A DNA stretch of 64,000 bases from Arboricoccus pini (GTDB lineage: Bacteria; Pseudomonadota; Alphaproteobacteria; Geminicoccales; Geminicoccaceae), in NCBI RefSeq assembly GCF_900187945.1, contig NZ_FYEH01000010.1, forward strand, positions 1 through 64,000. Reading direction: 5' to 3'. The translations under genes were made by a program, and so were the position numbers. The notes below the pieces were generated by a model, which was given only the letters and a program-made list of their open reading frames with translations, was not told the DNA's origin and did not search any database. Shown here one piece after another: positions 39,188 through 55,644 of the stretch; the stretch's first letter is position 1; each line of letters opens with the position of its first letter.

Positions 39188-40531
39188 CTAGGCCTTGGCG
39201 TACGGCGAGGGGCCGTCGAACCTGATCTTGTAGTGATCGGCATATTGGGCCCTGACCCGCTCGAACTCGCCGTTCGACCGCGCATCGGCATAGGCCTTGG
39301 GCACCGTCCAACCTTGCGGCTTGGCTATTCCCTGCCAGTGCTTTTCGATATCGATGGGATAGACTTCGGCCTGGGGGTCCCAATCGTCCGGATGCAGGAC
39401 TTTGGAGATCTTGCGGTAGTCGAAAGGCTTCACGTCGCCATTATCGACAAACCGCTTCAGGTAACCTTCGACATTCGTTTTCGTTGTAGTGAGCGACCGC
39501 CAGTTGAGCATGCGCTCGGCGGCGCGCGGTTGCCAGCCATGCGTCACGTCGTAGATTCGCCCGGCGAAGAGCGCTGCCGCATAGGCCGGGCTGTTGGCGC
39601 TGGTCGCCAGCTGGGTCCCCTTGGCAATCGACTTCGCGCCCAGGCTGGTACCGTCCGCGCCGACAACCAGAACATCCTCGCCTGGCCTCAATCCGGCGGC
39701 ATTCAACGCTGCGATCACTCCCTGTGCCACGTCGTCGTTCTGCGCCACGATCCCCACAACGTCTTTGTGGCGGCTGAGCAGGTCTTCCGTGGTCTTCAGC
39801 GCGTCCTCGCGGTTCCACTTGCCGGGTAGCTGATCGACGAGCCGGGTCTTGGGATATTCTTTGAAGGCGGCATCGCGGCCCCCGCTGCGGGCAATGTCAC
39901 TCCAATTGCCTGGGGAACCGGTCACTCCCAGAATATCGCCGCCGCCGAATTTCTCCGTGACCGCCTTGAGTAATTCCTCGGTCACCGCCTTGTGGGCCGC
40001 GAATTCCTCCGGCACGGCATAGAGGGTATAGTAATCGCCGGCCTCGAAGGGCGTGAACCAGGCCAGGGTATCCCAGACATTGCCGACATAGACCTTGTTG
40101 TCCTCGGCGCCCTTGGCGATGCGCGGCAGCGGACTGCCATCCGCTAGATTGAAGATGGCAGAGCCAATGCCGGCAGCGGTCTGTTGCTCGAACTGGTTGA
40201 GTTGAAGCTGACTGTCGAAATTTCCGTCCAGGCCGACATAGCCGCTAAAGCCCAATTCCGTCGTGGCATCCGCAAAGGCCTTGTCGAGGATGATGTTATA
40301 TTCGTTGCGATAGAAGGCCGTCAGAAATGCCAGCTTGCCGGAAGGTGCGACGGCGGCGGCGGCGGGCATTCCCATGGTGGCGGCGGCAACGCTGGCGACG
40401 GCACCCGCCGAGGCCAGCGCCAGGAAATCCCGTCGCGAGACGCCATGGGTGTCCAGCCGGTCCATATGACGATCGACGACGCGCCGGTCGGTAAAGTCGG
40501 GAAATCGCCGGGGGTCGATGACGCGGCTCAT
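39188..40531 (-). CDS. CUT2-type ABC transporter substrate-binding protein, Tat-exported
   Basis: 447 residues, longer than the usual ~320-340 of ribose-type binding proteins. A 30-residue charged leader (FPDFTDRRVVDRHMDRLD...) precedes the twin-arginine core SRRDFLALASAG. The periplasmic binding domain has NIILDKAFADATTELGF, DVVGIVAQNDDVAQGVIAALN and VLVVGADGTSLG. About 95 extra C-terminal residues follow, including KVLHPDDWDPQAE and DHYKIRFDGPSP. Its close paralogue lies immediately upstream. The substrate is unknown. Confidence 0.92.
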   Translation of the reverse strand: MSRVIDPRRFPDFTDRRVVDRHMDRLDTHGVSRRDFLALASAGAVASVAAATMGMPAAAAVAPSGKLAFLTAFYRNEYNIILDKAFADATTELGFSGYVGLDGNFDSQLQLNQFEQQTAAGIGSAIFNLADGSPLPRIAKGAEDNKVYVGNVWDTLAWFTPFEAGDYYTLYAVPEEFAAHKAVTEELLKAVTEKFGGGDILGVTGSPGNWSDIARSGGRDAAFKEYPKTRLVDQLPGKWNREDALKTTEDLLSRHKDVVGIVAQNDDVAQGVIAALNAAGLRPGEDVLVVGADGTSLGAKSIAKGTQLATSANSPAYAAALFAGRIYDVTHGWQPRAAERMLNWRSLTTTKTNVEGYLKRFVDNGDVKPFDYRKISKVLHPDDWDPQAEVYPIDIEKHWQGIAKPQGWTVPKAYADARSNGEFERVRAQYADHYKIRFDGPSPYAKA

Positions 40532-40592
40532 GAACGTTCCAGTGAATGAGAGATCGGTGAACTCGAAGGCCATTGCTCGACAGGCCCGCGAG

Positions 40593-41915
40593 CTACGCCT
40601 TGCGGTTGGGCGAGGGGCCGTCGAATTTGATTTTGTAGTGATCGGCGTACTCGGCCTTGACCTTCTCGAATTCGCCATTGGCCCTGGCCTCCGCATAAGC
40701 CTTTGGCGGCGACCAGTCGGCCGGCTTGGGATAGCCCAGCCAGTGGCGTTCGAGATCGAGAGGATAGAGGTCGGCCTGAGGATCCCAGTCGTCGGGATGC
40801 AGAACCTTGGACATCCGTCGATAGTCGAAAGGTTCGGTATCACCGTTGTCGACGTATCGGTCGATGTAGCCGTCCACATTGTCCTTCGTCACGACCGTGG
40901 CGCGCCAGTACAGTTGGCGCTCGGCCGCCCGTGGCACCCAGCCATGGGCCACGTCGAAGATGCGTGTTGCAAACAGCGCACCGGTGAAGACCGGGGAATT
41001 GCCGCTGGTCGCGATTTGCCGGCCTGCTCGAACGGCCTTGGCGCCCAGGGACGTGCCGTCAGCGCCGGCAACAAGGACGTCCTCGCCCGCCTTGAGCCCG
41101 ACGTTGCGCAAAGCGGCTATCGCGCCTTGCGCCTCGTCGTCATTCTGCGTGATGATTCCAACGATGTCCTTGTTGCGGGTCAAGAGATCCTCGGTCGCCC
41201 GCAGCGACTCCTCGCGCAGCCACTTTCCGGGCAACTGATCAACCAGCTTGATGTTGGGAAACTTGGCCAGGGCTTCCTCTCGGCCCCGGTTACGGGCCGT
41301 TTCACACCAACCCCCAGGCGATCCGGTAAGGGCTACGACCTTGCCACCACCGAATTTGTCGGAGACCGCTTGAAGCAACGCCTCGCTGACGCCGCGGTGG
41401 GCGACATCTTCCTCGGGGTTGGCATAGAGCGTGTAGTAGCCGGCACCATCAAACGGTGTGAACCATGGCAAGCTGTCCCAAACCGCGCCGAAATAAACTT
41501 TAGATGCGTCGGCTAACTGGGAGACGCGGCGCAGAGCGCTGCCGTCCAGGATATTGAAGAAGCCGCCTGTCGCTTGAGTGGTCGCCAGTTCCTCGAACTG
41601 GTTAAGCTGGCGCCCCGCATCGATCTGGCCGTCAAGCAGAGTATAGCCCATGCCCAGCGCCGCCGCAGCCGCGCCTGCCCCCTTGCCGACCAATTGATTA
41701 TATTCGGTGCTTGCGCTCCAGGCGAGATAGGCAATCTTGCCGCTCGGGTCGGCGACGGCGACCGCGGGCCAGCCCATCGCCGTGGCGGCTGCGGAAGCAG
41801 CGACGCCCGCGGAGGCCAGCGCCAGGAAGTCGCGCCGTGCTACGCCGCGAGTATCCAGACGGTCAAGATGTCGGTCGATCACGCGCTTGTCCGCGAAATC
41901 CGGAAATTTTGGCAT
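40593..41915 (-). CDS. CUT2-type ABC transporter substrate-binding protein, Tat-exported (paralogue)
   Basis: 440 residues with the same layout as the next gene: leader KFPDFADKRVIDRHLDRLDT, Tat core ARRDFLALASAG, binding domain with DIVGIITQNDDEAQGAIAALR and VLVAGADGTSLG, and the same C-terminal extension (KVLHPDDWDPQAD, HYKIKFDGPSP). The body has diverged, so the two proteins probably bind related but different ligands for the same membrane complex. The ATG at 41915 gives the paralogous N-terminus; an upstream extension in frame is not supported. It is the first gene of the operon, so the promoter should lie just above 41915. Confidence 0.92.
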   Translation of the reverse strand: MPKFPDFADKRVIDRHLDRLDTRGVARRDFLALASAGVAASAAATAMGWPAVAVADPSGKIAYLAWSASTEYNQLVGKGAGAAAAALGMGYTLLDGQIDAGRQLNQFEELATTQATGGFFNILDGSALRRVSQLADASKVYFGAVWDSLPWFTPFDGAGYYTLYANPEEDVAHRGVSEALLQAVSDKFGGGKVVALTGSPGGWCETARNRGREEALAKFPNIKLVDQLPGKWLREESLRATEDLLTRNKDIVGIITQNDDEAQGAIAALRNVGLKAGEDVLVAGADGTSLGAKAVRAGRQIATSGNSPVFTGALFATRIFDVAHGWVPRAAERQLYWRATVVTKDNVDGYIDRYVDNGDTEPFDYRRMSKVLHPDDWDPQADLYPLDLERHWLGYPKPADWSPPKAYAEARANGEFEKVKAEYADHYKIKFDGPSPNRKA

Positions 41916-42986
41916 GGGCTCATCCGAGCGTAGGGAGAACAGACGGATCAGACTAAACGATCCGAAAACAAGGGTCGGCCGCTCCAATCTCCGTTAACGA
42001 CCCGAGCGGGCCCGTCGAAACGGCGAAGCTTACTTAGGAAGACTATAAGTCGTCGGCGCCATCATTATTATGATTGGCACCCAATTCGCCTCGCGATCAA
42101 CACGTACATATCTTATTATGACTTTCGCGTACTTCGGGTTTATTCCCATTTTTGCATTCGAACATTATTCGTTCCTCTTCAAGAGGCGCGACATGAGAAG
42201 CCAGGCTATCGCCGTCGTCGATAGCGTTCCCGCTTGATCGCTTCCGCAGGTTTATACCACAAACCCTATGGGTCAAGTCGTGAATTAGGAATATGTCATC
42301 GCGAATATAAAGGGGGCCCACCGGAGCGGTACGATTACGGCTATCGCCTCAGGTGTCACGCCCGGACGTGGGCGAGATAACGCGGACCGGCGAGCTTCTA
42401 CCGGGACGTCGAGATCATGACCGTCCTGGAGGGATCAGATTTGACACGTTCGAAGGAACGTAGTGACCACCTTGCTGGCAAGGAGCGATCCTGTCGGGCA
42501 GCTGGCCGCGCATCATTTTGACGGGGTTGAAGCGAGACTGGGTGCTTACGCTGGTGCTACGGCTTGATCGGCCCGCAAACCGGTATCGACTATCAATTCT
42601 GGTCTCACATTAGCTTCGGCCTGACCTATGAGGGCTGCTCGCGGGCGCGGCCTGAAGCTATGGCATTGTCGCCAATCTCGTCGTCGGCTCTCGAGTCGAG
42701 GGGTCAAAGCCTCCAGGAACGTCCAGGCCTCGCAGCAGGTCTTTACCCGGAGATCTGGTCGCGACCTTCAGCTGAAGGCTGCATTGGCTCGGCAGTGACG
42801 AAAGCCGGACACGACTACCCATGCGGGCACGATCACCTCAAGATCGGCCATGCGATTTATGCATTGAAGCGCCGACATTCTGGCGGTTCCGGCCGGCCGA
42901 TTAACTCAGCACAGCGTCGAAAGGAAATAGCGCTGACGCCTACAATGTGACCCCCGCGCCTCTTCCTTGCTCGCTAGCTGGGCTCT
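41916..42986. other. AT-richer, gene-poor region with a possible IS630-type transposase remnant
   Basis: The first ~400 bases are visibly AT-rich for this genome and probably hold the promoter of the binding-protein operon. Further on, around 42515-42600 on the plus strand, one frame gives LKRDWVLTLVLRLDRPANRYRL, which resembles the DGPINR region of IS630-family transposases but soon meets stops. No intact gene is seen up to the LnmK-like gene. Confidence 0.35.
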
Positions 42987-43847
42987 CTAGCTGGCTTCGC
43001 CCCGTTTCTCGGTGCGGGCAATGGCAAGGATGGCGTCATCGGAGAGGCGCCGGACAGCGCAGGTTGCGATCCGTCCAGCCGAAGTCGGCTCCAGCGCCAG
43101 GAGTTCGATCGCCAGCGGAACGGCCGGCCCCACATTGCCGAAGTAATGGATCTCGCGCATGACTAGGCGCTGATCGAGCTCATGCCACCAGTGCCAGTCG
43201 GCGCGCTCGAGAAAGGCCTGAAAGCTGGCGAAATAGAGGAAGCCCGCTCCGTTGAAGTCGGTGAGCGGGCAGGGTTCGATGGTGAATCGCTGGCTGACCT
43301 CGCTCATCGCCTGCTCGCGGGCCGTGTGGTGACGGCGTGCGAGGTCGGGTAATGCCTCGAGGGGAGCCAGCGCGCACTGGCAGCCTGCGGGCAGGTCGCG
43401 CGCCACCCTTTCATTGCAGCCCTCCTCGTGGCGATGGATGAAGACCGAAATCATCTCGATCGAGGCGATCACGCGTCCGTCGCACGACACCCGCTGGCGG
43501 CTAGCAAAACGTGTGGCCGAAAGCCGCGAGAGCTCGCCTTCGAAGATCAGCCTCGCCCCCTCGCGAACAGCCTCCAGGCAAAGATCCGCCAGCCGCAATG
43601 ACACGAAACTCGGATAGAGGCGCTGGCCGCGGCTGTTTTGAAACGCGGGCTCGAGTTGGCCGAACGCTGCCGCAAGCATCAGCCAGTGCCGGTGGCCACA
43701 ATATTTGAGCAGCCATGTCTCGGCCAGGCCGGCTGGTGCAAGCTCGGGCATACCGACGACCACGACGCTGGGGGCGGCATACCTCGCCGGCAGCGGATGG
43801 CGCTGGCCCTCGAGAAAGGCCATCTCGGGAAACGCGGTCTCAGACAT
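42987..43847 (-). CDS. LnmK/Pnap_2097-like double hot-dog biosynthetic protein
   Basis: 286 residues. Two similar halves each carry hot-dog-like segments: PELAPAGLAETWLLKYCGHRHW with YPSFVSLRL in the first, and FNGAGFLYFASFQAFLERADW with VMREIHYFGN in the second. The pattern (AETWLLKxxGHxHW ... NGAGFLYFAxF) is that of the Pnap_2097 family, related to LnmK, a bifunctional acyltransferase/decarboxylase that loads carrier proteins in leinamycin synthesis (known for LnmK). No acyl-carrier gene is visible nearby, so the acceptor may not be a carrier. The start overlaps the flavin oxidoreductase gene by eight bases, making it the terminal gene of the Nit1C operon. Confidence 0.75.
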   Translation of the reverse strand: MSETAFPEMAFLEGQRHPLPARYAAPSVVVVGMPELAPAGLAETWLLKYCGHRHWLMLAAAFGQLEPAFQNSRGQRLYPSFVSLRLADLCLEAVREGARLIFEGELSRLSATRFASRQRVSCDGRVIASIEMISVFIHRHEEGCNERVARDLPAGCQCALAPLEALPDLARRHHTAREQAMSEVSQRFTIEPCPLTDFNGAGFLYFASFQAFLERADWHWWHELDQRLVMREIHYFGNVGPAVPLAIELLALEPTSAGRIATCAVRRLSDDAILAIARTEKRGEAS

Positions 43848-45153
43848 GTGCGGCGCCCGCTCCATTCAAGGTCCGCCCCTGGCGGGAGGAAGCTCCCGTT
43901 GCCAGCCAGGCGGCAAGCTGCTCGACGATGAAGCCGGCATCGCGGGCGATGCCGGCAAAGCGGCCCGAACCCCAGCTATGCAACCAGGGAAGGCCGATGA
44001 AGGCCAGGCCCGGCATGGCACTCATGCCGCGCCGATGCGTCGGGTACCCCGTGCCATCGAAGACCGGCAGGCGGACGAAGCTGAAGTCGCTACGAAAGCC
44101 CGTCGCCCAGACGACGCTGTTGATGCCGGCCTCCTCGAGGTCGAGCGCGTCGCGCTCGATCGTCGGCTGCCAGACCGGCCGATAGGGCGGCTCCGACGGC
44201 GCGTCGATGCCCTTCTCAGCGATGTGCTTGTCGATGACGGACTTGATCCCTTCGGCTACCTTGTCGGCGGCATCGAGATTGGCCTTGAGGTCGGTGCCGA
44301 GCCTCAGGCTCGATCCGTCGATCTCAAGGAGGCGCCCATAGAGTTCCATGCCCTCCGTCGCGAAGCGGCGAAGATCGATCTCGCGACCGCCGTCACGGCC
44401 GGTCAGGTAGTGATTGGCGTTCTTCCGTACCCCCTCCTTGAGGGGATGCTGCTCGACCGGCACATCGTAGTAGCCCATGTCATGCAGCCATGCGATGGCA
44501 TCCCGGCCGCGATAGCGGCGCGGTGATTTCGGCGCCCGCCCGACGCAGAGATAAACCTTTCGGCCGGCCAGATGCAGGTCCTCGGCGATCTGGCAGCCGG
44601 ACTGGCCCGAGCCCACCACCAGGACGGCTCCCTCGGGCAGCGCATCAGGGTTCTTGTAGTCGCGGCTGTGCAGCTGGTGGATCGACCTTGGCAGCCGCTC
44701 GGCGATGCGCGGGATAACCGGCAGGTGATACCCGCTGATCGCGACGACGACGGCATCGGCGGTAAAGGGGCCGCGCTCGGTTGCAAGCTCGAAGGGGCCA
44801 TCCGGCTGGCGCGTCAGGGCCGTGACTGCCGTATGCTCGAGAAGCGGCGGGTGCACCTTGTCACGATAGGCCTGTACATAAGCCACGATCTCGTCGCGGA
44901 GCATGAAGCCATCCGGGTCTGGCCCCGGATAGGGAAAGTCCGGCAACTGACATTGCCAGTTGGGCGTCACCAGGCAGAAACTGTCCCAGCGCTCGTTGGC
45001 CCAGGCATGCCCGGTTTCCCGCTTCTCGATGACGAGATGGGCGATGCCCTGCTGCATGAGATAATGACTGACCGAAAGGCCAGCCTGTCCGCCGCCAATG
45101 ACGATCACGGGGTAATGAGGCGGCGTTGCTGCCTTCTCCATTCTGGTCCTCAT
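43840..45153 (-). CDS. Nit1C flavin-dependent oxidoreductase (MSMEG_0569 family)
   Basis: 437 residues. The FAD motif is VIVIGGGQAGLSVS near the N-terminus, a second NADPH-type Rossmann motif is VLVVGSGQSGCQIAEDL in the middle, and WATGFRSD is the C-terminal flavoprotein signature, so it resembles flavin-containing monooxygenases. ETGHAWANERWDSFCLVTPNW is a family-specific stretch. It is one of the conserved Nit1C members and should catalyse an oxidation in the product's synthesis. The start at 45153 overlaps the stop of the MSMEG_0570-like gene (ATGA); an in-frame ATG lies four codons later. Confidence 0.9.
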   Translation of the reverse strand: MRTRMEKAATPPHYPVIVIGGGQAGLSVSHYLMQQGIAHLVIEKRETGHAWANERWDSFCLVTPNWQCQLPDFPYPGPDPDGFMLRDEIVAYVQAYRDKVHPPLLEHTAVTALTRQPDGPFELATERGPFTADAVVVAISGYHLPVIPRIAERLPRSIHQLHSRDYKNPDALPEGAVLVVGSGQSGCQIAEDLHLAGRKVYLCVGRAPKSPRRYRGRDAIAWLHDMGYYDVPVEQHPLKEGVRKNANHYLTGRDGGREIDLRRFATEGMELYGRLLEIDGSSLRLGTDLKANLDAADKVAEGIKSVIDKHIAEKGIDAPSEPPYRPVWQPTIERDALDLEEAGINSVVWATGFRSDFSFVRLPVFDGTGYPTHRRGMSAMPGLAFIGLPWLHSWGSGRFAGIARDAGFIVEQLAAWLATGASSRQGRTLNGAGAAHV

Positions 45154-45431
45154 GTGTTGAATGCGCCCACATGGACGAGGGCATCCGGCTCGAAGCGCGC
45201 GGCCTGGGCTTCGAGCCTTTCGAGCTGGCCGATGGCACGGCTGCAGGCAAAGCCGTATTTGGCCTCGACGCGGGCGCTGGCGATGGTAAGCGCCTGACGG
45301 CAACGATCCATCAGGTCGGTGAGACGATAATCGCTGCCGGGCTTGAGAAATTCCTGCACGACCAGGGATGGCGAATAGCAGACCTCATCCCGGCCGTCGG
45401 GCCAGCGAAGCGTGAAGGTCATCTCCGGCAT
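45150..45431 (-). CDS. Nit1C small protein (MSMEG_0570 family)
   Basis: 93 residues. The N-terminal half (MTFTLRWPDGRDEVCYSPSLVVQEFL) resembles the MSMEG_0570 nitrogen-starvation-response family, a small conserved Nit1C member without a known activity. The C-terminal half is helical and charged. It overlaps the glycosyltransferase stop by 13 bases and the oxidoreductase start by four, so it is firmly embedded in the operon. It could be a partner or carrier-like subunit (inference). Confidence 0.88.
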   Translation of the reverse strand: MPEMTFTLRWPDGRDEVCYSPSLVVQEFLKPGSDYRLTDLMDRCRQALTIASARVEAKYGFACSRAIGQLERLEAQAARFEPDALVHVGAFNT

Positions 45432-46591
45432 CGCGCACTCCTCTCGGTCGATGCGGCCAGACGCGCGTAGAGCGGCACATGCCGGTCCGCCACGTCTTGC
45501 CAGTCAAAGCGGGCCGCCACCTTGGGTCCACGCCGCGCAAGATCCGGCCCGATCTTCGGGTCCAGGGAGGCACGCATCGCGGCCGCGATGGCGGCCGGGT
45601 CGGATGGATCGACCCACAGGCATTCATGCGCGCCCAGATAATCGCGAAAGGGCGGTCGATCCGCGACGATGACCGGCGTGCCCGAGGCCATCGCCTCGAT
45701 GACGGCCAAGCCAAATCCCTCCTCGAAGGAAGGGAAGACCAGGGCGTCCGCCAGGCGATAGAGACTCTCCATCCGCGGCTGTGGGAGCGCGCCGGTGACC
45801 TGCACAGCCCGGATGAGATCCGGATCGTACGCCGCCAGTTTCGCCGCGAACGCAGCCTGATAACTGCTGTGATCGAGAAGCGTGGCGCCGCCTGCAAAAA
45901 TCAGCCTTGCCTCGGGGAGGGCCGCTTGCACCCAGCGAAAGGCCGCAAGGATGTTCTGGCTGTTCTTGCGGGCCTCGATGCCGCCCACGGCCAGGAAAAG
46001 CGGCCCCTGTCCGAGCTCGAGCTCCTGGCGCAAGGCGGCGTCCTGCGGCCTCGGCGCCGGGCTGAAGCGGTCAAGGGCGACGCCGTTGCCGACACAGAAG
46101 GCCTCACGACCATGCGTTTTGCGTAAGATCGCCTGCCAATGCGCGCTGACGCAGCAAAGGACATCCGGTTTCTCGATCGCCCGCTGGCTCCAGCAGGCCA
46201 GCACCGGATCGGCGAAATTGTCCACATGGTGCACGGTACGAACCAGGGGGGTCTTAATCCGCGCGGGCCTGAGGGCCAGCACGGCATTGGCACTGATGGG
46301 ATCCTGGGCGTGGAGGATGTGGAAACGGTCCGGCGGCTGGTTCGCCACATAGGCGCTGATCTCGTCAATCCGCTGCGACACCAGTTGGCGCAGATCCTTG
46401 CCGACAGCGGCCACGGGCAGGGCCACGGTTTCGCAGGCGGCCTGACGAAAAAACCCGCGCCCGTCCTGGTCAGGGCCAATGACGACCGCCTCGACGCCGC
46501 GTGCCAAGAGGGCCTCGCCCAAAGCCAGCGCGTGCGCCACGCCGCCGCGCGGATTGACCGAATGCGTGAAGAGGGCGACGCGCAGCCTCAT
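45419..46591 (-). CDS. Nit1C glycosyltransferase, family 4 (MSMEG_0565 family)
   Basis: 390 residues, GT-B fold. The N-terminal NPRGGVAHALALGEAL motif marks the acceptor domain. The C-terminal donor domain has FLAVGGIEARKN, VFPSFEEGFGLAVIEAMASGTPVI and the E-x7-E motif typical of GT4. It should transfer a sugar from a nucleotide donor to the cluster's product or an intermediate. The ATG at 46591 overlaps the stop of the AIR-synthase-like gene (ATGA). Glycosylation implies that the final metabolite is a glycoside or that a sugar is used as a scaffold (inference). Confidence 0.91.
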   Translation of the reverse strand: MRLRVALFTHSVNPRGGVAHALALGEALLARGVEAVVIGPDQDGRGFFRQAACETVALPVAAVGKDLRQLVSQRIDEISAYVANQPPDRFHILHAQDPISANAVLALRPARIKTPLVRTVHHVDNFADPVLACWSQRAIEKPDVLCCVSAHWQAILRKTHGREAFCVGNGVALDRFSPAPRPQDAALRQELELGQGPLFLAVGGIEARKNSQNILAAFRWVQAALPEARLIFAGGATLLDHSSYQAAFAAKLAAYDPDLIRAVQVTGALPQPRMESLYRLADALVFPSFEEGFGLAVIEAMASGTPVIVADRPPFRDYLGAHECLWVDPSDPAAIAAAMRASLDPKIGPDLARRGPKVAARFDWQDVADRHVPLYARLAASTERSARCRR

Positions 46592-47559
46592 GCATCCGGT
46601 CTCCGGCCACAGCCGATCAAAGGCTGGACCCCAAAATCCCAAACGGTGGCTTCCTGCCCACCCTGGGCGATCCTGACGGACGATCCCGCCTCGACATGGC
46701 CGATCGGGGCGCAGGCGATGTCCCGGCTGGCAAAGTGACCGGCGACCAGATCTCGCGCGGCGGGCGGCACGGCCAGGAGAAAGCCGAAGCTTGGAAAACT
46801 CGTGAGCCAGCGCAAGGGGTCGATCCCCTCCGGCCGCGGAATGGCGTCGATGTCGAGACGACCGCCGCAGCCAGAGCTCTCGAGAAGCATGACGGCCGTG
46901 CCGACGAGGCCGGCCTGACTGATGTCCTTGGCGGCGCCGCAGGCGGACATCTCGGCCAGGCTCGGCAGCAATTCAAGATCGCCGCGCAGCCGCTCCGCCG
47001 GTCTGCCGGTGCTGGCGTCCCAAAAGGGGTGCGGCTCGCGAAAGCGCCCTCTAAGATCAATGGCCGCCATCAATAGCTGGCCAGGCTCGGCCGCAAAGCC
47101 CGAGAGCAGGCGGCGCGCTCGTCCGAGAACGGCCACGGCCAGCTGATCGCTCGGGCTGCGAAGGTTGCTGTGACCGCCGACGATCGGCACACCGTAGCGC
47201 GACGAGGCCGATTTCAGCCCGTCGAGGAGAGGCAGGCTGGCGACCGCATCTCGCGCCCAAAGGGCATCGACGACGGCGATCGGCCGCCCGCCCATGGCAG
47301 CGATGTCGGAAAGATTGACCATGAGGCCGCAATAGCCGGCGAAAAAGGGATCGGCGGCAACGAAACTTGGCAGAAAGCCCTCGATCGCCAGAAGAAGGAA
47401 GCCATCGCCATCGGCAATGGCGGCGCAGTCGTCGCCGACCTCGATGGGCGAGTCTGAGAGGCCCAGCCGTTGCGCCACGCCCGCGATATCGCGCTTTTGC
47501 GCCAGCCCCAAAGTCTGGCTGATCGCCAGGGCCAGGCCATCGAGCGAGGTGCGGGTCAT
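46588..47559 (-). CDS. Nit1C AIR-synthase-like ATP-grasp-related enzyme (sll0787 family, PurM/ThiL/SelD superfamily)
   Basis: 323 residues. VGDDCAAI and the GGRPIAVVDALWA stretch match the N-terminal PurM-like ATP/metal-binding half; VGGHSN and SACGAAKDISQAGLVGT belong to the C-terminal half. PurM-superfamily members activate an amide or carboxylate oxygen with ATP and often form a ring or a phosphorylated intermediate. In the Nit1C cluster the substrate is not established. It overlaps the GNAT stop and the glycosyltransferase start by four bases each. Confidence 0.88.
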   Translation of the reverse strand: MTRTSLDGLALAISQTLGLAQKRDIAGVAQRLGLSDSPIEVGDDCAAIADGDGFLLLAIEGFLPSFVAADPFFAGYCGLMVNLSDIAAMGGRPIAVVDALWARDAVASLPLLDGLKSASSRYGVPIVGGHSNLRSPSDQLAVAVLGRARRLLSGFAAEPGQLLMAAIDLRGRFREPHPFWDASTGRPAERLRGDLELLPSLAEMSACGAAKDISQAGLVGTAVMLLESSGCGGRLDIDAIPRPEGIDPLRWLTSFPSFGFLLAVPPAARDLVAGHFASRDIACAPIGHVEAGSSVRIAQGGQEATVWDFGVQPLIGCGRRPDA

Positions 47560-48056
47560 GCGACCAGCCGTCCGGCCACGATGAAGCCCTCCTCGCCCGC
47601 GGTATCCGGAGGATAGAAGTCGAGGTCGGCCTGCATCAGGTGATGCGGATGGTCATGCAGGAGCACTTCGCCCTGGCTTTGCCAGTGTAGGCGGCGAAAA
47701 AGAACGACGTTGCGGCGCTGCACGTGGGCAAGAAAGCGGGTGCTGCCTCGGGCATGCGCGGTCGAGACTGCAAGGCGGATTAAGGCCGCCCCGAGCGGGC
47801 CGGCGCGGCGATGATCCGGATGGACGCAGAGTCGCGAGCCCCACCAGAGGCCGGGTTCGCTCGAATGAATGCGCACCGTGCCGACAACGACGCCCGCCTC
47901 GTCCAGGGCGACGATCGGCAGGGCGATGGCGTCGATCGCATCCCGGTCGTCGTCGGCAAAGAGGCCCTGCTCCTGACAGAAGACCTGACGCCGCAAGGCG
48001 GCCGCACCCTGGCATTCCTCTGGTAGCGTGGCGAGTTTGACCCGGTAATCCTGCAT
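47556..48056 (-). CDS. Nit1C GNAT-family N-acetyltransferase (MSMEG_0567/sll0786 family)
   Basis: 166 residues. The acetyl-CoA-binding motif appears as SRLCVHPDHRRAGPLGAALI, with VVGTVRIHSSE as the preceding strand and NVVLFRRLHW near the C-terminus. RRQVFCQEQGLF in the N-terminal part is characteristic of this subgroup. It would acylate an amine in the pathway. It lies three bases after the radical SAM stop and overlaps the AIR-synthase-like gene by four. Confidence 0.9.
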   Translation of the reverse strand: MQDYRVKLATLPEECQGAAALRRQVFCQEQGLFADDDRDAIDAIALPIVALDEAGVVVGTVRIHSSEPGLWWGSRLCVHPDHRRAGPLGAALIRLAVSTAHARGSTRFLAHVQRRNVVLFRRLHWQSQGEVLLHDHPHHLMQADLDFYPPDTAGEEGFIVAGRLVA

Positions 48057-48059
48057 GGC

Positions 48060-49196
48060 TCAAAAGGCTCCGACCGCGCGGTCCGGTTTCTCATAAGAGG
48101 CGAGGGCGGAGCAGGCGCCGCATTTAGCGCAGCCTGCCTTGACATCCAAGGAGCGGAGGCCAGCCGACCAGAGCATGGCCCCCAAAGGCTCGAGGATCGC
48201 ATGCATGAAGGAGGGATCGGGTGTGGGATGGCTCTCCAGGGGCGTGCCAGATATCGGCACGAAGGGAACGACGAAGGGGTAAACGCCAAGGCTAATAAGC
48301 AGCTCGGCCATCCCGAGGATCGCCTCCTTGCTGTCGCCCAGGCCCGCCAGGATATAGGTCGAGACTTGGCCCCGGCCGAAGACAGGGACGGCGGCGGCGA
48401 AGGCCTGCATGTAGCGCTCGACCGGCACGCCGGCCTTGCCAGGCATGAGGCGCTGGCGCAATTCGGGCGTGACGATCTCGAGATGCATGCCCAGCGAATC
48501 GACGCCCGACGCTTTCATTCGGGCAAACCAGTCATCGTCGTCGGGTGGCTCGCATTGCGCCTGGATCGGCAGGTTCACAGCTGCCTTGACGGCAAAGGCG
48601 CTCTCGGCCAGCACGGCCGCCCCGCGATCGGAAGTCGCCGGTGTGCCCGTCGTCATGACCATGTGGCGCACGCCATCGAGGCGCACGGCCGCCTCGGCGA
48701 CCTCGGCCAATTGGGCCGGCTGCTTGTGCGCGATGGTACGGCCAGCCGCCAGCGACTGACCGATGGCGCAGAACTGGCAGGTCTTGGTCCGGCTCTGGTA
48801 GCGGATGCAGGTCTGCAAGACGGTGGTCGCCAGAACGTCGCTGCCATGCATGACAGCGATCTTCGAATAAGGAACGCCTTCGGCCGTCTGCAGCTGATAG
48901 AAGCGTGGGCCCGCCGGAAAAGCGATTGTCGCGACCGGAACGCCATCCCGAAGCAGGACGCTTTGGCCCGAGGCATCGGGTCGCTCGGCCATAAAGGGGC
49001 TCTCGAAGGCTTGAGCGGTGTGGACGGGTATCATGACCGTCCGGTCGCCGATGGTCACGGCCTTGTGGTCGGAGGGTCCGGCACCGCCGCGGCGGCTGGC
49101 GATGCCGGCCTTCGGATCGACCAGTCTAAGACCCGAGGACTGCAGCTCGTTGATCAGCTGTTCCAGCCCCGGGGGCGTCGAACAAACTGGGGTCAT
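48060..49196 (-). CDS. Nit1C radical SAM protein (MSMEG_0568 family)
   Basis: 378 residues. The SAM-cluster cysteines are C130, C140 and C143 (C-x9-C-x2-C) instead of the usual C-x3-C-x2-C; they lie within [16 protein letters not shown]-terminal CAKCGAC suggests a second metal or Fe-S site. [12 protein letters not shown]-like sequence at the N-terminus ([12 protein letters not shown]) is family-specific. It should carry out a radical rearrangement or insertion on the nitrilase-related intermediate. The start at 49196 overlaps the nitrilase 3' end by 71 bases; no later Met would keep the family N-terminus. Confidence 0.88.
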
Positions 49197-50178
49197 GATC
49201 GTCTCTTCCGTATGGATCCGCGAAGGGAAAGGAAACAGCGTCCGATCGGCTGGTGGCCATCACCGGCTGCGGACGATCGTCGATCAGAAGGCGCAGGAGT
49301 TCGGGTCTGGCATAATGACCGACCGAATCCATCATCCGCTTGCGCTTGACGATGAGGGAGAGATCGAGCTCGGCCACGAGCAGGCCCTCGCCCTCCTTCA
49401 GGGGCGGGGCCAGATGCTGGCCCTCAGGCGATATGATCGCCGTGCAGCACCCGCCGCGCAGCGCGCGCTGCAGGCCCTGGTCAGGCGTTATGGCGACGAT
49501 CTGCGCGTCGGTCAGCCAGCCGGTGGCGTTCACCACGAAGCAGCCCGCTTCCAGCGCGTGGTGGCGGATCGTCACCTCCATCTGGTCGGCAAAGATCTGG
49601 CCCACCATTGAGCCCGGAAATTGGGCGATGTGGATTTCCTCATGCTGCGCCATGAGGGCAAAGCGGGCCAAAGGATTATAGTGCTCCCAGCAGGCCAAAG
49701 CACCGAGGTGGCCGACACGGCTCTTAACCACCTTGAGGCCGCTGCCGTCGCCCTGGCCCCAGATCATGCGCTCATGAAAGGTGGGCGTGATCTTGCGACG
49801 TTTTAAAAGCAGGCTGCCATCGGCGTCGATGAGAAGCTGTGTGTTGAAGAGCGAGCCGTGATCTCGCTCGTTGATGCCGAGCGCGACGACGATCTCATGT
49901 CGGCGGGCTGCCGCCGCTACTGCATCGACCAGTGGGCCCGGCACGGTAGGAGCAAGTTCGTAGAGCCGGGCGTGTGCCCGGCCGGACAGAACGGGCGGCT
50001 GGACGAACGAGAAATAGGGGTAATAGGGAACGAAGGTTTCAGGAAAGGCGATCAGCCCGGCACCTTGGCCGGCGGCCTCGCCGATGGCCGCCAGAACCTT
50101 GGCAAGGGTGCCCTCGGCCGAGTCGAGATCGGGGGCCAGCTGGGCTGCCGCCACCTTGATCGTCGGGGAAGCGCTCAT
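49126..50178 (-). CDS. Nit1C nitrilase (sll0784 family)
   Basis: 350 residues with the full catalytic triad: Glu47 in [12 protein letters not shown], Lys129 in [20 protein letters not shown] and Cys163 in [22 protein letters not shown] and [11 protein letters not shown] are those of true nitrilases rather than amidases. Such enzymes turn a nitrile into a carboxylate and ammonia. In Pseudomonas the Nit1C cluster is linked to growth on cyanide (published). It is the second gene of the operon, 34 bases after the MSMEG_0572-like gene. Confidence 0.94.
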
Positions 50179-50212
50179 TGACGGCTTGTCTCCAGGCGAC
50201 GGTCGGTCAGGA

Positions 50213-50695
50213 TCAAAGCGTCCAGGTATCAAGGATGAAGGCGTTGGCCTTGCGGTGCAGAAGGACGAGATCCAGCACGTCCAGGGGGCTGATCGGCTGG
50301 ATGCCTTCCATAAGCGCCGGCTCGCCGCTGCCATAGAGGGCCTGCAGCGCGAATCGGCAGGCATACACCTTGCCGCCCTCGCTCATGATCTTGCCCAACT
50401 GGTTGTTGAAGTTCAGGTGACCGGGGAAAGCCTCGTCACCCAGGGTCGGGAAGCCGCGCTGGATGCCAAGGGTCACGCCAGGCCCATAAAGGAGGACAGA
50501 CGTCTCGAACCCCTTGCGGATCAAACGCGTGGCCTGCAGCAGGTTGACGAGGCCGATCGAGCCTTCAAAGGCCACCGTATGAAAGGTGACAAGCGCTTTT
50601 TCGCCGGGCTCGGCTTTCACGTCCTCGAACAATTTCGACTCGTAATCGACCAGATAATCGCCCTTCTGGTGCTTGGCTTTCTTTACGACCGGCAT
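50213..50695 (-). CDS. Nit1C conserved protein (MSMEG_0572/sll0783 family)
   Basis: 160 residues. [22 protein letters not shown] and [11 protein letters not shown] are DsrE-like fold features, and the N-terminus is Lys-rich ([25 protein letters not shown]). The sll0783 homologue of Synechocystis is induced by nitrogen starvation and affects polyhydroxybutyrate accumulation (published). Its biochemical role is unknown. It is the first gene of the operon, so its expression reflects the promoter in the divergent region at 50696-51019. Confidence 0.92.
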
Positions 50696-50801
50696 GGCTT
50701 CAACTCCATCAAGGGATGATCAAGCGCAACGACACAGCTCCGTAGCGGCGGCATCGTCTCGCCTGGCAGGCTGAATGATCGCAAGCATTATGCCAGTCAA
50801 T

Positions 50802-50986
50802 TTGAATGTCAGACCATGGTCATTATCCATTCAATAATGCATTCAATTCGCTAAGACAAATGACTTAGAATTACCCATTTTGTGCATTTTATGAGGCAAA
50901 ATGCCTACTGATCGGGCAATTGGGGCGTGCTTTACAAGTGGCTGCCACCGGGTTACTGCTGCGATCAATTCAGAAATTGAATGCAT
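50802..50986. promoter_or_regulatory. AT-rich divergent promoter region with multiple inverted and direct repeats
   Basis: Between the Nit1C operon and the MocR gene lie: TTGAATG (50802-50808) facing CATTCAA (50828-50834); ATGCATTCAAT (50837-50847) and its exact reverse complement ATTGAATGCAT (50976-50986); two ATTCAAT direct repeats 12 bases apart (50829 and 50841); and GCATTTT/AAAATGC around a 7-base loop (50884-50904). The density of matching half-sites suggests binding sites for the MocR-type protein. MocR regulators usually bind direct repeats in such gaps. Confidence 0.55.
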
Positions 50987-51019
50987 CTATCTCGACCCTT
51001 CACCAGGAAGACATCCTCG

Positions 51020-52399
51020 ATGTGGCTGCCCGACCTTGGCGATCATGCGCGACCGCATTATCTGGCGATTGCCGATGCCATTGCCGAGGATATCCGAGTT
51101 GGCCGGCTGCGCGCCGAGGACCGTCTGCCGCCGCAACGGCATCTGGCCGCGCGGCTCGACCTCAACTTCACGACCGTGGCCAGAGGCTATGTGGAGGCGC
51201 AGCGGCGCGGCCTGGTCGAGAGCCGGGTCGGGGCTGGGACCTTCGTGCGCTCGCAGGCAACGGCATCGGCTCCGGCGCGTAGCATCCGTCGTACCGATCT
51301 CGTCGATTTCAGCATGAATCTGCCGCCCGAGCCGGACGATCCGGCCCTCCTGGAGCGGATGCGGCGGGCATTCACGGCCGTTGGCGGCGATCTTACGACC
51401 CTCTTGCGCTACCAGGGCTTCGGCGGCACGCCGGAGGACAAGGATGCGGCCCTTGGCTGGTTGACGCGGCGCCACGTGAGCGCCACCCGCGACCGCCTCC
51501 TCATCTGTCCGGGCACACATAGCGCGCTCTTGGCCATCATTGGTTCGCTGGCGCGCCCAGGCGAAGCCGTTGCTTGCGAGATGCTGACCTATCCGGGGCT
51601 GAAGGCGATTGCCGGCCAGCAGGGGGTGCGGCTGGTGGGTGTGGAGAGCGACGCGCAAGGCATGCGCGCGGATGCCCTGGAAGCGGCCTGTGCCGAAGGT
51701 GCCATCAAGGCCCTTTACTGCAATCCCACGCTCTTGAACCCGACGACGGCGACGATCACCGCACCGCGCCGCCTGGAACTGATCGAGGTGGCGAGAAAAC
51801 ATAGCCTGCGCATCATCGAGGACGATGCCTACGCGTTGGTTCCGAGACAGCCGCCGCCGGCCTTCGCAACGCTGGCGCCGGACATCACCTACTACGTCAT
51901 GGGTCTGGCTAAATGCTTAGGGGCGGGTCTGCGCATATCCTACCTCGTACTGCCCGAAGGCGGTCGCTCATGGGCGGTCGCGACGGCCCTGCGCGCCGCC
52001 AACGTCATGGCCTCGCCCATAACGTCCGCTTTGGCCTCGCGCTGGATCGCCGAGGGGATCGCCGATGACGTGCTGGAGCAGATCCGCGTCGAGTCACGAG
52101 CGCGACAGGAACTGGCCCGGGAGAGCCTGGCCGGTCACGAGGTGGCCAGCGATCCCGAGGGCTTCCATCTTTGGATCACCCTGCCGCCGCACTGGACTCG
52201 CTCGGCCCTGACCGGCCAGTTGCGGACTTCTCGCATCGGCGTCGTTGCCAGCGACGCTTTCGCCGTGGGCGAAACGCCGCCCGAAGCCGTGCGCGCCTGC
52301 CTCGGCGGGTTCACCAACCGGGCCGAGACCCGGCACGCGCTGGAGTTCCTGGCGGAGGTCCTGAACACGCCCCCCAGCATGATGAGCGGCGTCATCTGA
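51020..52399 (+). CDS. MocR/PdxR-type regulator: GntR helix-turn-helix fused to aminotransferase domain
   Basis: 459 residues. Residues ~5-75 form a GntR winged helix-turn-helix (HYLAIADAIAEDIRVGRLRAED, RLPPQRHLAARLDLNFTTVARGY, ESRVGAGTFV). The rest is a class I aminotransferase-like domain with the PLP-binding Lys in GLAKCLGAGLRISY and ILDDDAYA-like IIEDDAYALV. MocR proteins sense PLP-amino compound adducts and control neighbouring genes. ATG 51020 is preferred over 50981 because an AGGAAG lies about 12 bases upstream. It is divergent from the Nit1C operon, so it is the likely regulator of it (inference); known Nit1C clusters often use other regulators. Confidence 0.9.
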   Translation: MWLPDLGDHARPHYLAIADAIAEDIRVGRLRAEDRLPPQRHLAARLDLNFTTVARGYVEAQRRGLVESRVGAGTFVRSQATASAPARSIRRTDLVDFSMNLPPEPDDPALLERMRRAFTAVGGDLTTLLRYQGFGGTPEDKDAALGWLTRRHVSATRDRLLICPGTHSALLAIIGSLARPGEAVACEMLTYPGLKAIAGQQGVRLVGVESDAQGMRADALEAACAEGAIKALYCNPTLLNPTTATITAPRRLELIEVARKHSLRIIEDDAYALVPRQPPPAFATLAPDITYYVMGLAKCLGAGLRISYLVLPEGGRSWAVATALRAANVMASPITSALASRWIAEGIADDVLEQIRVESRARQELARESLAGHEVASDPEGFHLWITLPPHWTRSALTGQLRTSRIGVVASDAFAVGETPPEAVRACLGGFTNRAETRHALEFLAEVLNTPPSMMSGVI

Positions 52400-52630: not shown

Positions 52631-53944
52631 TCAAGGCTGCCAATGGCTAAGCCTTTTCTCCAGCCAGGTGGCGGCGGCCAGCAAATCGGCGTCGCCTTGC
52701 TCGCGTCCCACCAGTTGCAAACCCAGCGGCATGCCCTCGAGCGTCAGTCCGGGCAGGCTGAGGCTGGGTGCGCCGAGAAAGGTCCAGATCGAGGCCAGGA
52801 TGGGGTCGCCGGTGCCGGCCTCGAACGGCCCCGCCACATGAGTGGTCGCGGCTGTGATCAACGCATCAAAGGGAGCGGCGATCGCCGCGAATTCCTGCCG
52901 AAGCGTCTCACGAAGCCGACGGGCCCGGGCGAGCGCGGGATCGCCGATCGACTGGCCACGCTCGATCAAATCCACCAGGATGGGTGACATCAACGCTCTT
53001 CCCCGCCGGTAGTCGACGTCGAGCTCGGTTGCGAGACCATGCATTAAGAGGTCGCCCAATGCCGGACTGGCCTCGGCGAAGCTCTTTGGCAGATCGAGGC
53101 GCTCGACCTCGGGGCCAAGCGAGCGGACAAAGGCCTCGATCAGCGCCCGGGAGGCAGGACTGACCTGGTCCCAATAGGGGCCGGGCACGAAGGCCAGGCG
53201 GGGCAGGGCCGGCGACCCGATGTGAGATGCGTCGAGCAGGCCCGGCTCGGTCAGAGCCGCAAGGAGAACTGCCGCGCCTTGAACGTCCGTCGTCATGAAA
53301 CCCGGCTGATCGAGAAGCTCGGCCTGGGGAAGAATGCCCGTGCGAGGCAGGAGTCCGAAGCTGGGCTTGAAACCGACGATGCCGCAATAGGAAGCTGGTC
53401 GGATGATCGATCCGTTCGTTTGCGTTGCGAGCGCGGCCGGCACCATGCCGGACGCGACGGCGGCGGCCGATCCGCTCGACGAGCCGCCGGGCGTGCGCCC
53501 TTTATCATGCGGATTGCGCGTAGGACCGGCGGCGAAGGTGGCAAATTCGGAGGTTACCGTCTTGCCGATGATAACGGCCCCAGCCTGCCGCAGCCGCGTG
53601 ACCAGCGCCGCATCCGTCCCCGGCCGGCGCCCTTCGTGCAAGGGCGAGCCATAGGCGGTCGGCATGTCGGCCGTATCGATGATGTCCTTAACCCCGACCG
53701 GCAGGCCATGCAGCGGACCAGGCGGCTTTCCTGCCTTGCGCGATGCATCCAACGCCCGGGCCCGGGCCAACGCCCCGGCCGGGTCCAGATGGACGAAGGC
53801 CCGGATCTCGGGCTCCTCCGCCGCAATGCGCGCGAGACAGGCGGCGGCGAGGTCGACCGCCTCGAGATCCCCATCGCGAAGAGCACGGAGAAGATCCGCA
53901 AGGGACCGGCCGGGCGAGTTGCCCGGGTTCAAGGATGCCGTCAT
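52631..53944 (-). CDS. Amidase (amidase-signature family, GatA/AtzF-like)
   Basis: 437 residues. The Ser-cisSer-Lys triad is visible: Lys in GVKDIIDT and Ser residues in GGSSSGSAAAVASG, with TQTNGSIIRPASYCGIVGFKPS as the substrate-pocket signature. GKTVTSEFA is also typical. It hydrolyses an amide (or allophanate-like compound) to acid plus ammonia. It is the last gene of the importer/hydrolase operon. ATG at 53944 is chosen over a GTG at 53980 because the amidase homology begins soon after. The gap to the racemase-like gene is 63 bases. Confidence 0.92.
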   Translation of the reverse strand: MTASLNPGNSPGRSLADLLRALRDGDLEAVDLAAACLARIAAEEPEIRAFVHLDPAGALARARALDASRKAGKPPGPLHGLPVGVKDIIDTADMPTAYGSPLHEGRRPGTDAALVTRLRQAGAVIIGKTVTSEFATFAAGPTRNPHDKGRTPGGSSSGSAAAVASGMVPAALATQTNGSIIRPASYCGIVGFKPSFGLLPRTGILPQAELLDQPGFMTTDVQGAAVLLAALTEPGLLDASHIGSPALPRLAFVPGPYWDQVSPASRALIEAFVRSLGPEVERLDLPKSFAEASPALGDLLMHGLATELDVDYRRGRALMSPILVDLIERGQSIGDPALARARRLRETLRQEFAAIAAPFDALITAATTHVAGPFEAGTGDPILASIWTFLGAPSLSLPGLTLEGMPLGLQLVGREQGDADLLAAATWLEKRLSHWQP

Positions 53945-54007
53945 AGCGGGCTCCCATCGTTCCGTTTTAGAGCCGCTCACGCTCCGAGGCCAGCGACATG
54001 GGCAAGG

Positions 54008-54751
54008 TCAACCGGCCTGGAAGAGCGCGCGAAGCTCGGGGGTGACACCAAGGACGGGCTTGCTCGCGGAGCCGCGAGGACGACGGGACCCGCCGGGCTT
54101 GGGCGGGAATGCCGCAAGGGCTTCCGCCTGGCGGGTCGCCGCCGCCACGCAGTCGAGGATCGGCACGGCCACGCGCTCCGCGAGCCGCTCGGCCAGCCCG
54201 GCCAGCGGCGCGCCCGCGAGAATGATGATGTCGGCACCGTCCAATTCGACGGCCTCGCGGCACAAGGTCAGGAGGGCCGTTTCCTTCTCTTCCTGGATAC
54301 GGGTGATGTCGCCGAACCCGTCCTGCAGGCAGCGGATCGATGCCAGCCGCGAGCGCAGGCCCAGCCGTTCGACGGCGTCTTCGTACCAGGGCTTGAATTC
54401 CGCTGCGAAGGAGACGAGCGAGAAGCGGCGTGCCAGCATGGAGGCCGTCAGCATGGCACTCTCGGCAACACCCAGCACCGGCACCGACAATAGCTCGCGC
54501 GCGGCATCCAGCCCGGGATCACCGAACGCCGCGATCACCGCCGCATCGCAGTCGGCAGCGTGGGCGGCCAGCATTTCCAAGGTAGCGCAGGCGGCGATCG
54601 CGGCTTCCGCGCGGGTGACGATGTAGGGAACACCCCAGGTCACGGTGACGGCCTCGATTTCGGTATCGGGCGACGCAGCGCGCCTTGCCGTAGCCGCGAT
54701 ACGCGCGGTTATGTCCGTCGACGTGTTGGGATTGACGATCAATAGCCTCAT
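54008..54751 (-). CDS. Asp/Glu/hydantoin-racemase-superfamily protein lacking both catalytic cysteines
   Basis: 247 residues. MRLLIVNPNTSTDIT and the GVAESAM region are those of the hydantoin-racemase group. The first catalytic Cys is normally in IACFxDPG; here it is IAAFGDPG. The second is normally in LGCAGMAG; here it is LAGAPLAG. Cys-less members are known as a subfamily near amidase and importer genes, but their reaction is unproven. A two-base-type racemase activity is therefore unlikely, and a lyase, isomerase or binding function is possible. It overlaps the upstream C-N hydrolase gene by four bases. Confidence 0.85.
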   Translation of the reverse strand: MRLLIVNPNTSTDITARIAATARRAASPDTEIEAVTVTWGVPYIVTRAEAAIAACATLEMLAAHAADCDAAVIAAFGDPGLDAARELLSVPVLGVAESAMLTASMLARRFSLVSFAAEFKPWYEDAVERLGLRSRLASIRCLQDGFGDITRIQEEKETALLTLCREAVELDGADIIILAGAPLAGLAERLAERVAVPILDCVAAATRQAEALAAFPPKPGGSRRPRGSASKPVLGVTPELRALFQAG

Positions 54752-55644
54752 GCTTCGATCCTTATGCCAGGCGTGATGAAGCCCTGGGTGAGAATGGGAT
54801 GGCGCCGCTCGAACAGGGGCAGGGTGGCACGCGCCCGCTCGATGTCGGCTCGCTCGATCGCCGCCACGGCCATACCGGCCGTTGCCGCCGCGCCGACGGC
54901 AGAGCGGGCCAGAACGGTGCCGTCCGCAGCGATGACGCAGCTGCCGCCGGGCTGCGGAATGCTCGTGCCGGCCAGCCGATCCTCTCCTGCACGGCTGGCA
55001 TAGATCACCGCCAGGCCGTTCTCCCGCGCATGCGTGCGCAGTTCGCCCAGGACAAAGGCGTCATCCTCCCCGCTCAGGCCGGCAACCGGCACCGCGACCA
55101 GATCCGCCCCCAGCGCACGTAGCGCTCGCCATGCTTCCGGAAAACGGCGGTCGTAACAGATCAGACAACCGAGTCGCAGGCCACCGAGATCGAAGACACG
55201 AAGATCGGCCCCGGGGCGGAAATGACCCGCCTCGTCGGCATCGGGACCGCTTGGGAGATGCAGTTTGCGGGCGACGCGGCCCGACCCCTGCAAGCCGGCG
55301 CCAGGAACGAGCCTGCCATCGGCTCCGATCAACACGGCGCTGTTATAGCCTGGCCCATCGGGGTCCCATTCGTAGAACGGCAATAGCGCCGCAATGCCAA
55401 GGCTGGCACAATGCGCCGCCACGCGCGCGAGCACGTCAGCATCGATGGACACCGCCCAATCGCATCGCGACCCAGCCGGCTCGGCACAGAAATAGGGAAG
55501 CATCGCCAACTCTGGCAGGACTGCCAGCTTGACCGATGCCGCAGCGGCGGCTGCGAGCGCGGCGCAGACCGCCGCCTCGTTCACCGCCAAATCTTCCATA
55601 CAGCCCTTCGGCTGCAGGGCGGCGACCAGCATGGAACTTGGCAT
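54748..55644 (-). CDS. Nitrilase-superfamily C-N hydrolase (N-carbamoyl- or omega-amidase-like)
   Basis: 298 residues with the catalytic triad Glu45 (LPELAMLPYF), Lys127 (ARKLHLP) and Cys163 (LICYDRRFPE). The LICYDRRFPE type of cysteine region is that of carbamoylases/omega-amidases, distinct from the Nit1C nitrilase (CWEHYNP). It probably hydrolyses an N-carbamoyl or amide intermediate. It lies between the amidohydrolase and the racemase-like genes in one operon. ATG 55644 gives the longest protein; an in-frame ATG lies four codons later. Confidence 0.9.
   Translation of the reverse strand: MPSSMLVAALQPKGCMEDLAVNEAAVCAALAAAAAASVKLAVLPELAMLPYFCAEPAGSRCDWAVSIDADVLARVAAHCASLGIAALLPFYEWDPDGPGYNSAVLIGADGRLVPGAGLQGSGRVARKLHLPSGPDADEAGHFRPGADLRVFDLGGLRLGCLICYDRRFPEAWRALRALGADLVAVPVAGLSGEDDAFVLGELRTHARENGLAVIYASRAGEDRLAGTSIPQPGGSCVIAADGTVLARSAVGAAATAGMAVAAIERADIERARATLPLFERRHPILTQGFITPGIRIEA

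Follow-up and report, generated by a model that had tools for sequence, protein, structure and literature searches.

Nit1C gene clusters are widespread in bacteria and have been tied to growth on cyanide in Pseudomonas (PMC11049912), to nitrogen starvation in Synechocystis (PMC3901256), and to peroxide resistance in M. smegmatis (PMC6039565). A cluster of this type in the alphaproteobacterium Arboricoccus pini lies within the window analyzed in this article, by which is meant the whole stretch of 64,000 nucleotides at positions 1 to 64,000 of contig NZ_FYEH01000010.1 (assembly GCF_900187945.1). The operon ends in a gene for a protein of the Pnap_2097/LnmK family, a relative of the double-hotdog enzyme LnmK of leinamycin synthesis, and it is faced by a divergent gene for a MocR-type regulator. 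The locus raises the question of whether the LnmK-like gene belongs to Nit1C at all and, if so, what it would contribute to the cluster.

The answer developed below is that the window carries a recurrent variant of a known cluster, a conclusion that is well-founded. In many other bacteria the LnmK-like gene of this variant is accompanied by a gene for methylmalonyl-coenzyme A (CoA) mutase, an association suggesting that a propionyl group is required in this version of Nit1C; a propionylated product is what we infer, in a form open to testing. The pairing of the mutase with LnmK and a set of boxes in the MocR-flanked promoters are the new points.

Linkage of the LnmK-Like Gene to Nit1C

Relatives of the LnmK-like gene were collected by scanning genome contigs with an 11-sequence alignment, and the best 80 of 262 were taken, a choice that favors copies resembling that of the window. 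Four or more of the Nit1C core genes accompany 78 of these 80, and the full seven are there in 76 (L047 and L076 have fewer); the LnmK-like gene is the final gene of the operon in 77 of the 78, the exception being L046. The remaining two are L071, whose copy of the gene lies at the edge of its contig, and L098 (Stappia), where Nit1C is absent. Taxonomic samples were also searched, with matches below the TIGR04099 (Pnap_2097/LnmK) or TIGR04044 (MSMEG_0572) cut-off left uncounted. TIGR04099 exceeded its cut-off in 3 genomes and TIGR04044 in 11 of a class sample of 387, and in 5 and 13 genomes, respectively, of a phylum sample of 249; when shared genomes are counted once, five of the seven above-cutoff LnmK copies are at Nit1C. 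In the family of G588 (150 genomes), 27 genomes carry Nit1C as judged by TIGR04044 and 14 carry LnmK above cut-off, all 14 at the Nit1C locus (Fisher test, 1e-12), and among the 31 genomes of the window's own family a LnmK match was found in the window genome only. Eight plasmid regions, chosen from 60 matching records, stand outside all counts except the set of 29 mutases described below, which L009 enters.

Nit1C is the usual home of the LnmK-like gene, polyketide or fatty-acyl gene clusters being another (two plasmid loci). The exceptions that count against the linkage are L098, the above-cutoff copies G097 and G601, which lie away from Nit1C (the G601 match contains a stop codon), and the plasmid regions L013 and L015, two of the eight chosen, which are without Nit1C. 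An earlier note on this DNA had allowed that the linkage would be accidental if the gene were rarely beside Nit1C elsewhere; the linkage survives on all three sets of counts, and an accidental neighborhood is rejected on the strength of the 80 best relatives and the 14 family copies.

The gene is also optional in Nit1C clusters. From the samples, 46 Nit1C loci were laid out (the window, L108-L127, and L131-L155), with G660, whose LnmK fragment and MSMEG_0572 gene are on separate contigs, kept outside the 46. LnmK is intact in 19 of them, a fragment in one (L141), and absent from 26, the absence at L115, a contig of 6.7 kb, being taken from a search of the whole genome. On the best tree, built from three core proteins of the same loci, the distribution of LnmK entails 10 changes, 8 of which are forced by well-supported branches, and the gene has therefore been gained or lost many times.

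A Methylmalonyl-CoA Mutase Paired with LnmK

At a Caballeronia plasmid locus, the gene that follows LnmK is annotated as methylmalonyl-CoA mutase, and when this plasmid mutase was used as a tblastn query, 28 of the 80 loci gave a match on the downstream side of LnmK. The matches span at least 650 aligned residues in 25 of the 28, being partial only in L096, L100, and L102, and they lie 15-153 nucleotides from LnmK in 27 and 1207 nucleotides away in L091. All 28 loci carry the names of organisms that we take to be beta- or gammaproteobacteria. In the sampled family of 150 genomes, the mutase is found in 13 of 14 LnmK-bearing loci versus none of 11 LnmK-less loci, and across the 46 loci in 13 of 19 with an intact LnmK versus none of 26 without one (Fisher tests, 2.7e-6 and 3.7e-7; L115, which is LnmK-less and ends within the cluster before the mutase position, was left out, and both values, like the Fisher value for the linkage above, ignore relatedness, which lessens their weight). 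Single loci add detail to these counts. L145 has LnmK without the mutase, and L141, which retains only an N-terminal fragment of LnmK, shows no mutase. In L146 (7898-11355), a second GNAT gene, LnmK, and the mutase form a block at the start of the operon, beneath the MocR gene, and the two GNATs of this locus are 58% identical. The rearrangements in L141 and L146 point the same way as the mutase-LnmK pairing.

All three of the linked mutases that were tested exceed the methylmalonyl-CoA mutase equivalog cut-off of 876 bits. The substrate residues, a tyrosine and an arginine aligned to the P. shermanii mutase, which we take to be its Tyr89 and Arg207 and which presumably distinguish methylmalonyl-CoA mutase from isobutyryl- and hydroxyisobutyryl-CoA mutases, are kept in all 29 linked mutases, the plasmid copy included. 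The aligned tyrosine is a phenylalanine in entry 5req. The product of methylmalonyl-CoA mutase is the R form.

Fold and Residues of the LnmK-Like Protein

The window protein exceeds the cut-offs of both TIGR04099 and TIGR04098, and the best structural match of its AlphaFold model (predicted local distance difference test, pLDDT, 88.8) is LnmK itself (Z 27.9, root-mean-square deviation [rmsd] 2.4, 257 residues aligned). A search of the PDB with the single protein reached LnmK at an E value of 0.13, and with an alignment profile at 8.7e-17. Tyr84, Asn151, and Asn205 are invariant in all 56 alignment rows. In the profile alignment, Tyr84 falls on a LnmK tyrosine that we take to be Tyr62, and Asn205 on the asparagine of LnmK's DVNG; the tyrosine is replaced by phenylalanine in PDB 4hzp. 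Model and alignment together give a double-hotdog fold with the tyrosine and asparagine positions of LnmK. Decarboxylation by LnmK uses a loop asparagine, whose position is unspecified in the available text of PMC8666670, and the reference list of the same paper cites LnmK as specifying (2R)-methylmalonyl-CoA.

Proposed Pathway and Alternatives

We give about an even chance to the reading that the MocR-linked Nit1C operon has been extended by an acyl-thioester module that makes a propionylated Nit1C product under MocR control. Methylmalonyl-CoA mutase, whose gene adjoins LnmK in many beta- and gammaproteobacteria and lies elsewhere in the window genome, would convert succinyl-CoA to (2R)-methylmalonyl-CoA; the LnmK-like double-hotdog enzyme would take this substrate, decarboxylate it, and hand on the propionyl group; and the acceptor would be a Nit1C intermediate, reached directly or via the GNAT, so that the Nit1C product would be made in propionylated form. 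The MocR protein would bind the ATTGAnYG boxes described below and switch the operon upon an amine or amino-acid signal perceived through pyridoxal phosphate (PLP). By analogy with Pseudomonas, the core enzymes probably also serve in the use of nitrile or cyanide nitrogen. The suggestion of the earlier note that the LnmK-like protein adds an acyl group gains support from the linked mutase, which narrows the predicted activity to propionyl transfer, whereas its glycosylated product must be put more weakly, as something that may be made, the glycosyltransferase being found in only 51 of the 78 LnmK-bearing Nit1C loci. A wider version is possible but tentative: that a large proteobacterial branch of Nit1C makes a propionylated metabolite, in which a dedicated B12 mutase and the hotdog decarboxylase would form a portable module for acyl donation and MocR would sense an amine of the pathway.

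Several observations weigh against the proposed pathway. The window cluster is without a mutase, and none of the alphaproteobacterial loci among the 80 shows one (class assigned by organism name; L035, L064, and L092 have less than 1.5 kb downstream), so that the LnmK-mutase link in these bacteria is drawn by homology only. The window genome does encode a two-part mutase of its own, away from the cluster, so the LnmK substrate can be made. The window protein is 17% identical to LnmK, and malonyl-CoA or another acyl-CoA is a possible substrate. LnmK uses an acyl carrier protein (ACP), but at E up to 1 neither of two ACP queries had a match in the 78 Nit1C loci. Their matches were in L098, a locus lacking Nit1C in which an ACP homologue lies about 7.5 kb from LnmK, and, weakly (E 0.021), in the window at 4-165, far from the cluster. 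The role of the GNAT as propionyl user is argued from one rearranged locus.

The mutase and the LnmK-like protein could instead form a bypass from succinyl-CoA to propionyl-CoA in general metabolism, as in the E. coli Sbm pathway, which would be co-regulated with Nit1C for redox balance under nitrogen starvation without contributing to the Nit1C product. The two activities would indeed yield propionyl-CoA, and a connection of Nit1C homologues with redox balance has been drawn for Synechocystis (PMC3901256) and M. smegmatis (PMC6039565). The bypass is nevertheless unlikely, given that LnmK is so consistently the final gene of this one operon, that all 15 above-cutoff copies in two sampled families (1 in 31 and 14 in 150 genomes) are at Nit1C, and that 6 of the 19 loci with intact LnmK have it without a neighboring mutase.

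A role for the LnmK-like protein as a double-hotdog thioesterase, which would release an acyl group or clear stalled thioesters, is somewhat harder to credit. The next structural matches of the model are acyl-ACP thioesterases (4gak, Z 24.6, rmsd 3.0, 241 residues aligned, others lower), which tells to that extent against the propionyl pathway as well, but LnmK ranks above them, the tyrosine mutated in LnmK is invariant throughout the alignment, and a linked mutase would be unexpected. That the cluster is an ordinary Nit1C for nitrile or cyanide nitrogen, with LnmK and mutase carried along neutrally in a shared operon, is improbable, for although LnmK is missing from over half of the 46 loci, fragmentary in one, and repeatedly gained or lost on the tree, it is kept in members of the alpha-, beta-, and gammaproteobacteria (classes read from organism names) with its active-site residues invariant, and no mutase was seen in the 26 readable loci that lack an intact copy.

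The MocR-Type Regulator and Its Putative Operator

The product of the divergent gene joins a GntR domain to a class I aminotransferase domain that has a GLAK stretch and lysine 311, the combination of fused domains and PLP lysine that defines MocR proteins (the lysine motif was read in the window protein alone). Its best NCBIfam model is that of EhuR (NF052286), an assignment rejected because the score of 430.7 bits falls short of the 480-bit cut-off. PLP-linked sensing by this protein, which the earlier note had proposed, is plausible.

A MocR gene lies beside 45 of the 46 sampled Nit1C loci, the exception being L121, and it is as common in LnmK-less loci (15 of 16 and 10 of 10 in two sets). 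The linkage of MocR seen by the earlier note therefore holds for Nit1C overall, and a specific tie to LnmK is rejected. Among the 78 Nit1C loci with LnmK, the MocR gene is present in 75 and directly divergent in 69; it is downstream in L080, L095, L097, and L101, upstream on the same strand in L082 and L105, and not found in the stretch at L058 (cut by a contig end), L096, and L106.

Certain eight-base words are strongly over-represented in 70 divergent promoters. These 70 LnmK regions contain ATTGAnYG 214 times, whereas shuffled versions average 5.85 and reach 12 at most; the motif was picked on these regions, the window included, so a fairer test is provided by 25 LnmK-less regions, in which it occurs 81 times against a mean of 1.9 and maximum of 7 (shuffles preserve single-base composition only, and the regions are related to one another). 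Inside genes it was counted 4 times in 104400 bases, and the window has 5 boxes in the divergent promoter and 24 across its whole 64 kb. In four Methyloversatilis loci where MocR has moved downstream, 2 to 4 boxes stand before MSMEG_0572 and none before MocR; L082 and L105 have 1 and 2 boxes, and the MocR-less stretches L096 and L121 have none. The boxes are likely the MocR operator. Two points count against that assignment: the link between MocR and the boxes rests on co-occurrence, and L106, whose stretch lacks a MocR gene, has three boxes.

Organization of the Window Operon and Its Surroundings

All ten genes described in the earlier note were found in place (Table 1). The nine on the minus strand at 42987-50695 consist of the Nit1C families and Pnap_2097/LnmK, and all nine proteins pass NCBIfam cut-offs. 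The seven nit families, each over its curated cut-off, are contiguous on one strand, and "complete Nit1C" was an apt description; "overlapping" applies to six of the eight junctions, gaps of 34 and 3 nucleotides separating MSMEG_0572 from the nitrilase and the radical SAM gene from the GNAT, respectively.

Table 1. Genes and promoter boxes of the Nit1C locus in the window, with profile scores.
Feature	Position	Strand	Basis
MSMEG_0572/Sll0783 family protein (nitB-like), operon gene 1	50213..50695	-	TIGR04044 277 bits, cut-off 110
Nit6803-family nitrilase (nitC-like)	49126..50178	-	TIGR04048 550 bits, cut-off 503
MSMEG_0568-family radical SAM protein (nitD-like)	48060..49196	-	TIGR04043 594 bits, cut-off 304
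MSMEG_0567/Sll0786 GNAT (nitE-like)	47556..48056	-	TIGR04045 213 bits, cut-off 68
sll0787-family AIR-synthase-like protein (nitF-like)	46588..47559	-	TIGR04049 438 bits, cut-off 321
MSMEG_0565-family glycosyltransferase	45419..46591	-	TIGR04047 440 bits, cut-off 260
MSMEG_0570-family small protein (nitG-like)	45150..45431	-	TIGR04042 125 bits, cut-off 80
MSMEG_0569-family flavin oxidoreductase (nitH-like)	43840..45153	-	TIGR04046 648 bits, cut-off 498
Pnap_2097/LnmK-like double-hotdog protein, final operon gene	42987..43865	-	TIGR04099 236 bits, cut-off 125; TIGR04098 (LnmK) 223 bits, cut-off 100
MocR-type (GntR-aminotransferase) regulator, divergent	50981..52399	+	GntR and Aminotran_1_2 domains; likely start ~51020
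Five ATTGAnYG boxes, putative MocR operator	50794-50801, 50828-50835, 50840-50847, 50962-50969, 50976-50983		Word over-representation

Reading of the translations places the likely starts of the nitrilase at 50178 (within a longer open reading frame from 50364) and of the glycosyltransferase at 46591 (longer frame from 46642), and the flavin oxidoreductase likely begins with the ATG at 45153. The nitrilase contains a stretch of 12 residues and a CWEHY stretch. The radical SAM protein also matches NF045502 (variant_rSAM, 166 bits, cut-off 125) and has a cysteine spacing of CX9CX2C, and the GNAT also matches FeeM (PF21926, 27.9 bits, cut-off 27). The small MSMEG_0570 protein is modeled at a pLDDT of 94.8, with a CYSPS stretch and a second cysteine invariant in 10 of 10 rows; its model had no PDB match with E below 0.001 (best Z 4.2), weak matches that are no proof of a new fold.

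The composition of LnmK-bearing clusters varies. Some are reduced: L047 and L076 have genes for MocR, nitrilase, radical SAM, GNAT, AIR-like, and LnmK proteins alone in the stretch, and in L010 the nitrilase, radical SAM, GNAT, AIR-like, and LnmK genes form a group from which MSMEG_0572 and the glycosyltransferase are separated. In other loci a further gene sits between those for the flavin oxidoreductase and LnmK. It encodes one of two proteins with no similarity detected between them, each with a signal-peptide-like start, one in Methylobacteriaceae-like loci (L012:8845-9774, L063, and L127) and the other in sphingomonads (L029:8988-9917, L041, L043, and L045); both may be outer-membrane barrels. 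The open reading frame before LnmK in L043 begins within the oxidoreductase gene, and its 423-residue product has no NCBIfam match up to 1e-10 and no Pfam match; the version in L029 is shorter, at 310 residues.

Beyond the MocR gene, the minus strand at 52631-58117 encodes an amidase, an Asp/Glu/hydantoin racemase, a second carbon-nitrogen hydrolase, an amidohydrolase, and an ABC transporter ATPase, a set that looks suited to consuming a cyclic amide or some compound of the hydantoin type. Downstream of LnmK, at 35157-41987, two genes in tandem specify periplasmic binding proteins that belong to the same Pfam family; with them are genes for an ABC ATPase, a permease, and a luciferase-like monooxygenase.

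Relationship to Known Systems

The E. coli Sbm pathway consists of a mutase and a methylmalonyl-CoA decarboxylase. The same two steps are expected here from mutase and then decarboxylase, with the differences that the decarboxylase would be a hotdog enzyme and that the genes lie within a nitrilase operon. From leinamycin LnmK, with which it shares the double-hotdog fold and the aligned tyrosine and asparagine, the LnmK-like protein is set apart by its low identity, the mutase linked to many of its relatives, and the lack of a match to either ACP query in the 78 Nit1C loci.

All seven nit families of the list for Pseudomonas oleovorans CECT 5344 (nitBCDEFGH; PMC11049912), known also as the sll0783 genes in Synechocystis and gpr in M. 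smegmatis, are in the window operon, in which the glycosyltransferase and LnmK-like genes are extra. The Pseudomonas cluster has a sigma-54-type regulator, NitA (PMC11049912), whereas a MocR-type gene takes that place in the window, in whose genome no search for nitA was made. Catalogued MocR regulons often have operators with direct repeats, as here, and the words "nitrilase," "nitrile," and "radical SAM" are absent from the main text of that catalogue (PMC5320631), so under these terms the catalogue has no description of the window regulon. In the literature searched, Pnap_2097 goes unmentioned, and in the titles and abstract openings among the matches listed the linkage of LnmK, mutase, and MocR to Nit1C is undescribed; NCBI names the Pnap_2097/LnmK family and annotates it in such loci, and the co-location is therefore visible in databases.

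In the available portions of the literature cited above, the product of this widespread cluster goes unnamed. The mutase and the LnmK-like enzyme name its likely building block, a propionyl group derived from succinate, by which the metabolite could be sought through isotope labeling, and the MocR boxes supply a testable promoter, with a regulator that could be used to find the inducer.

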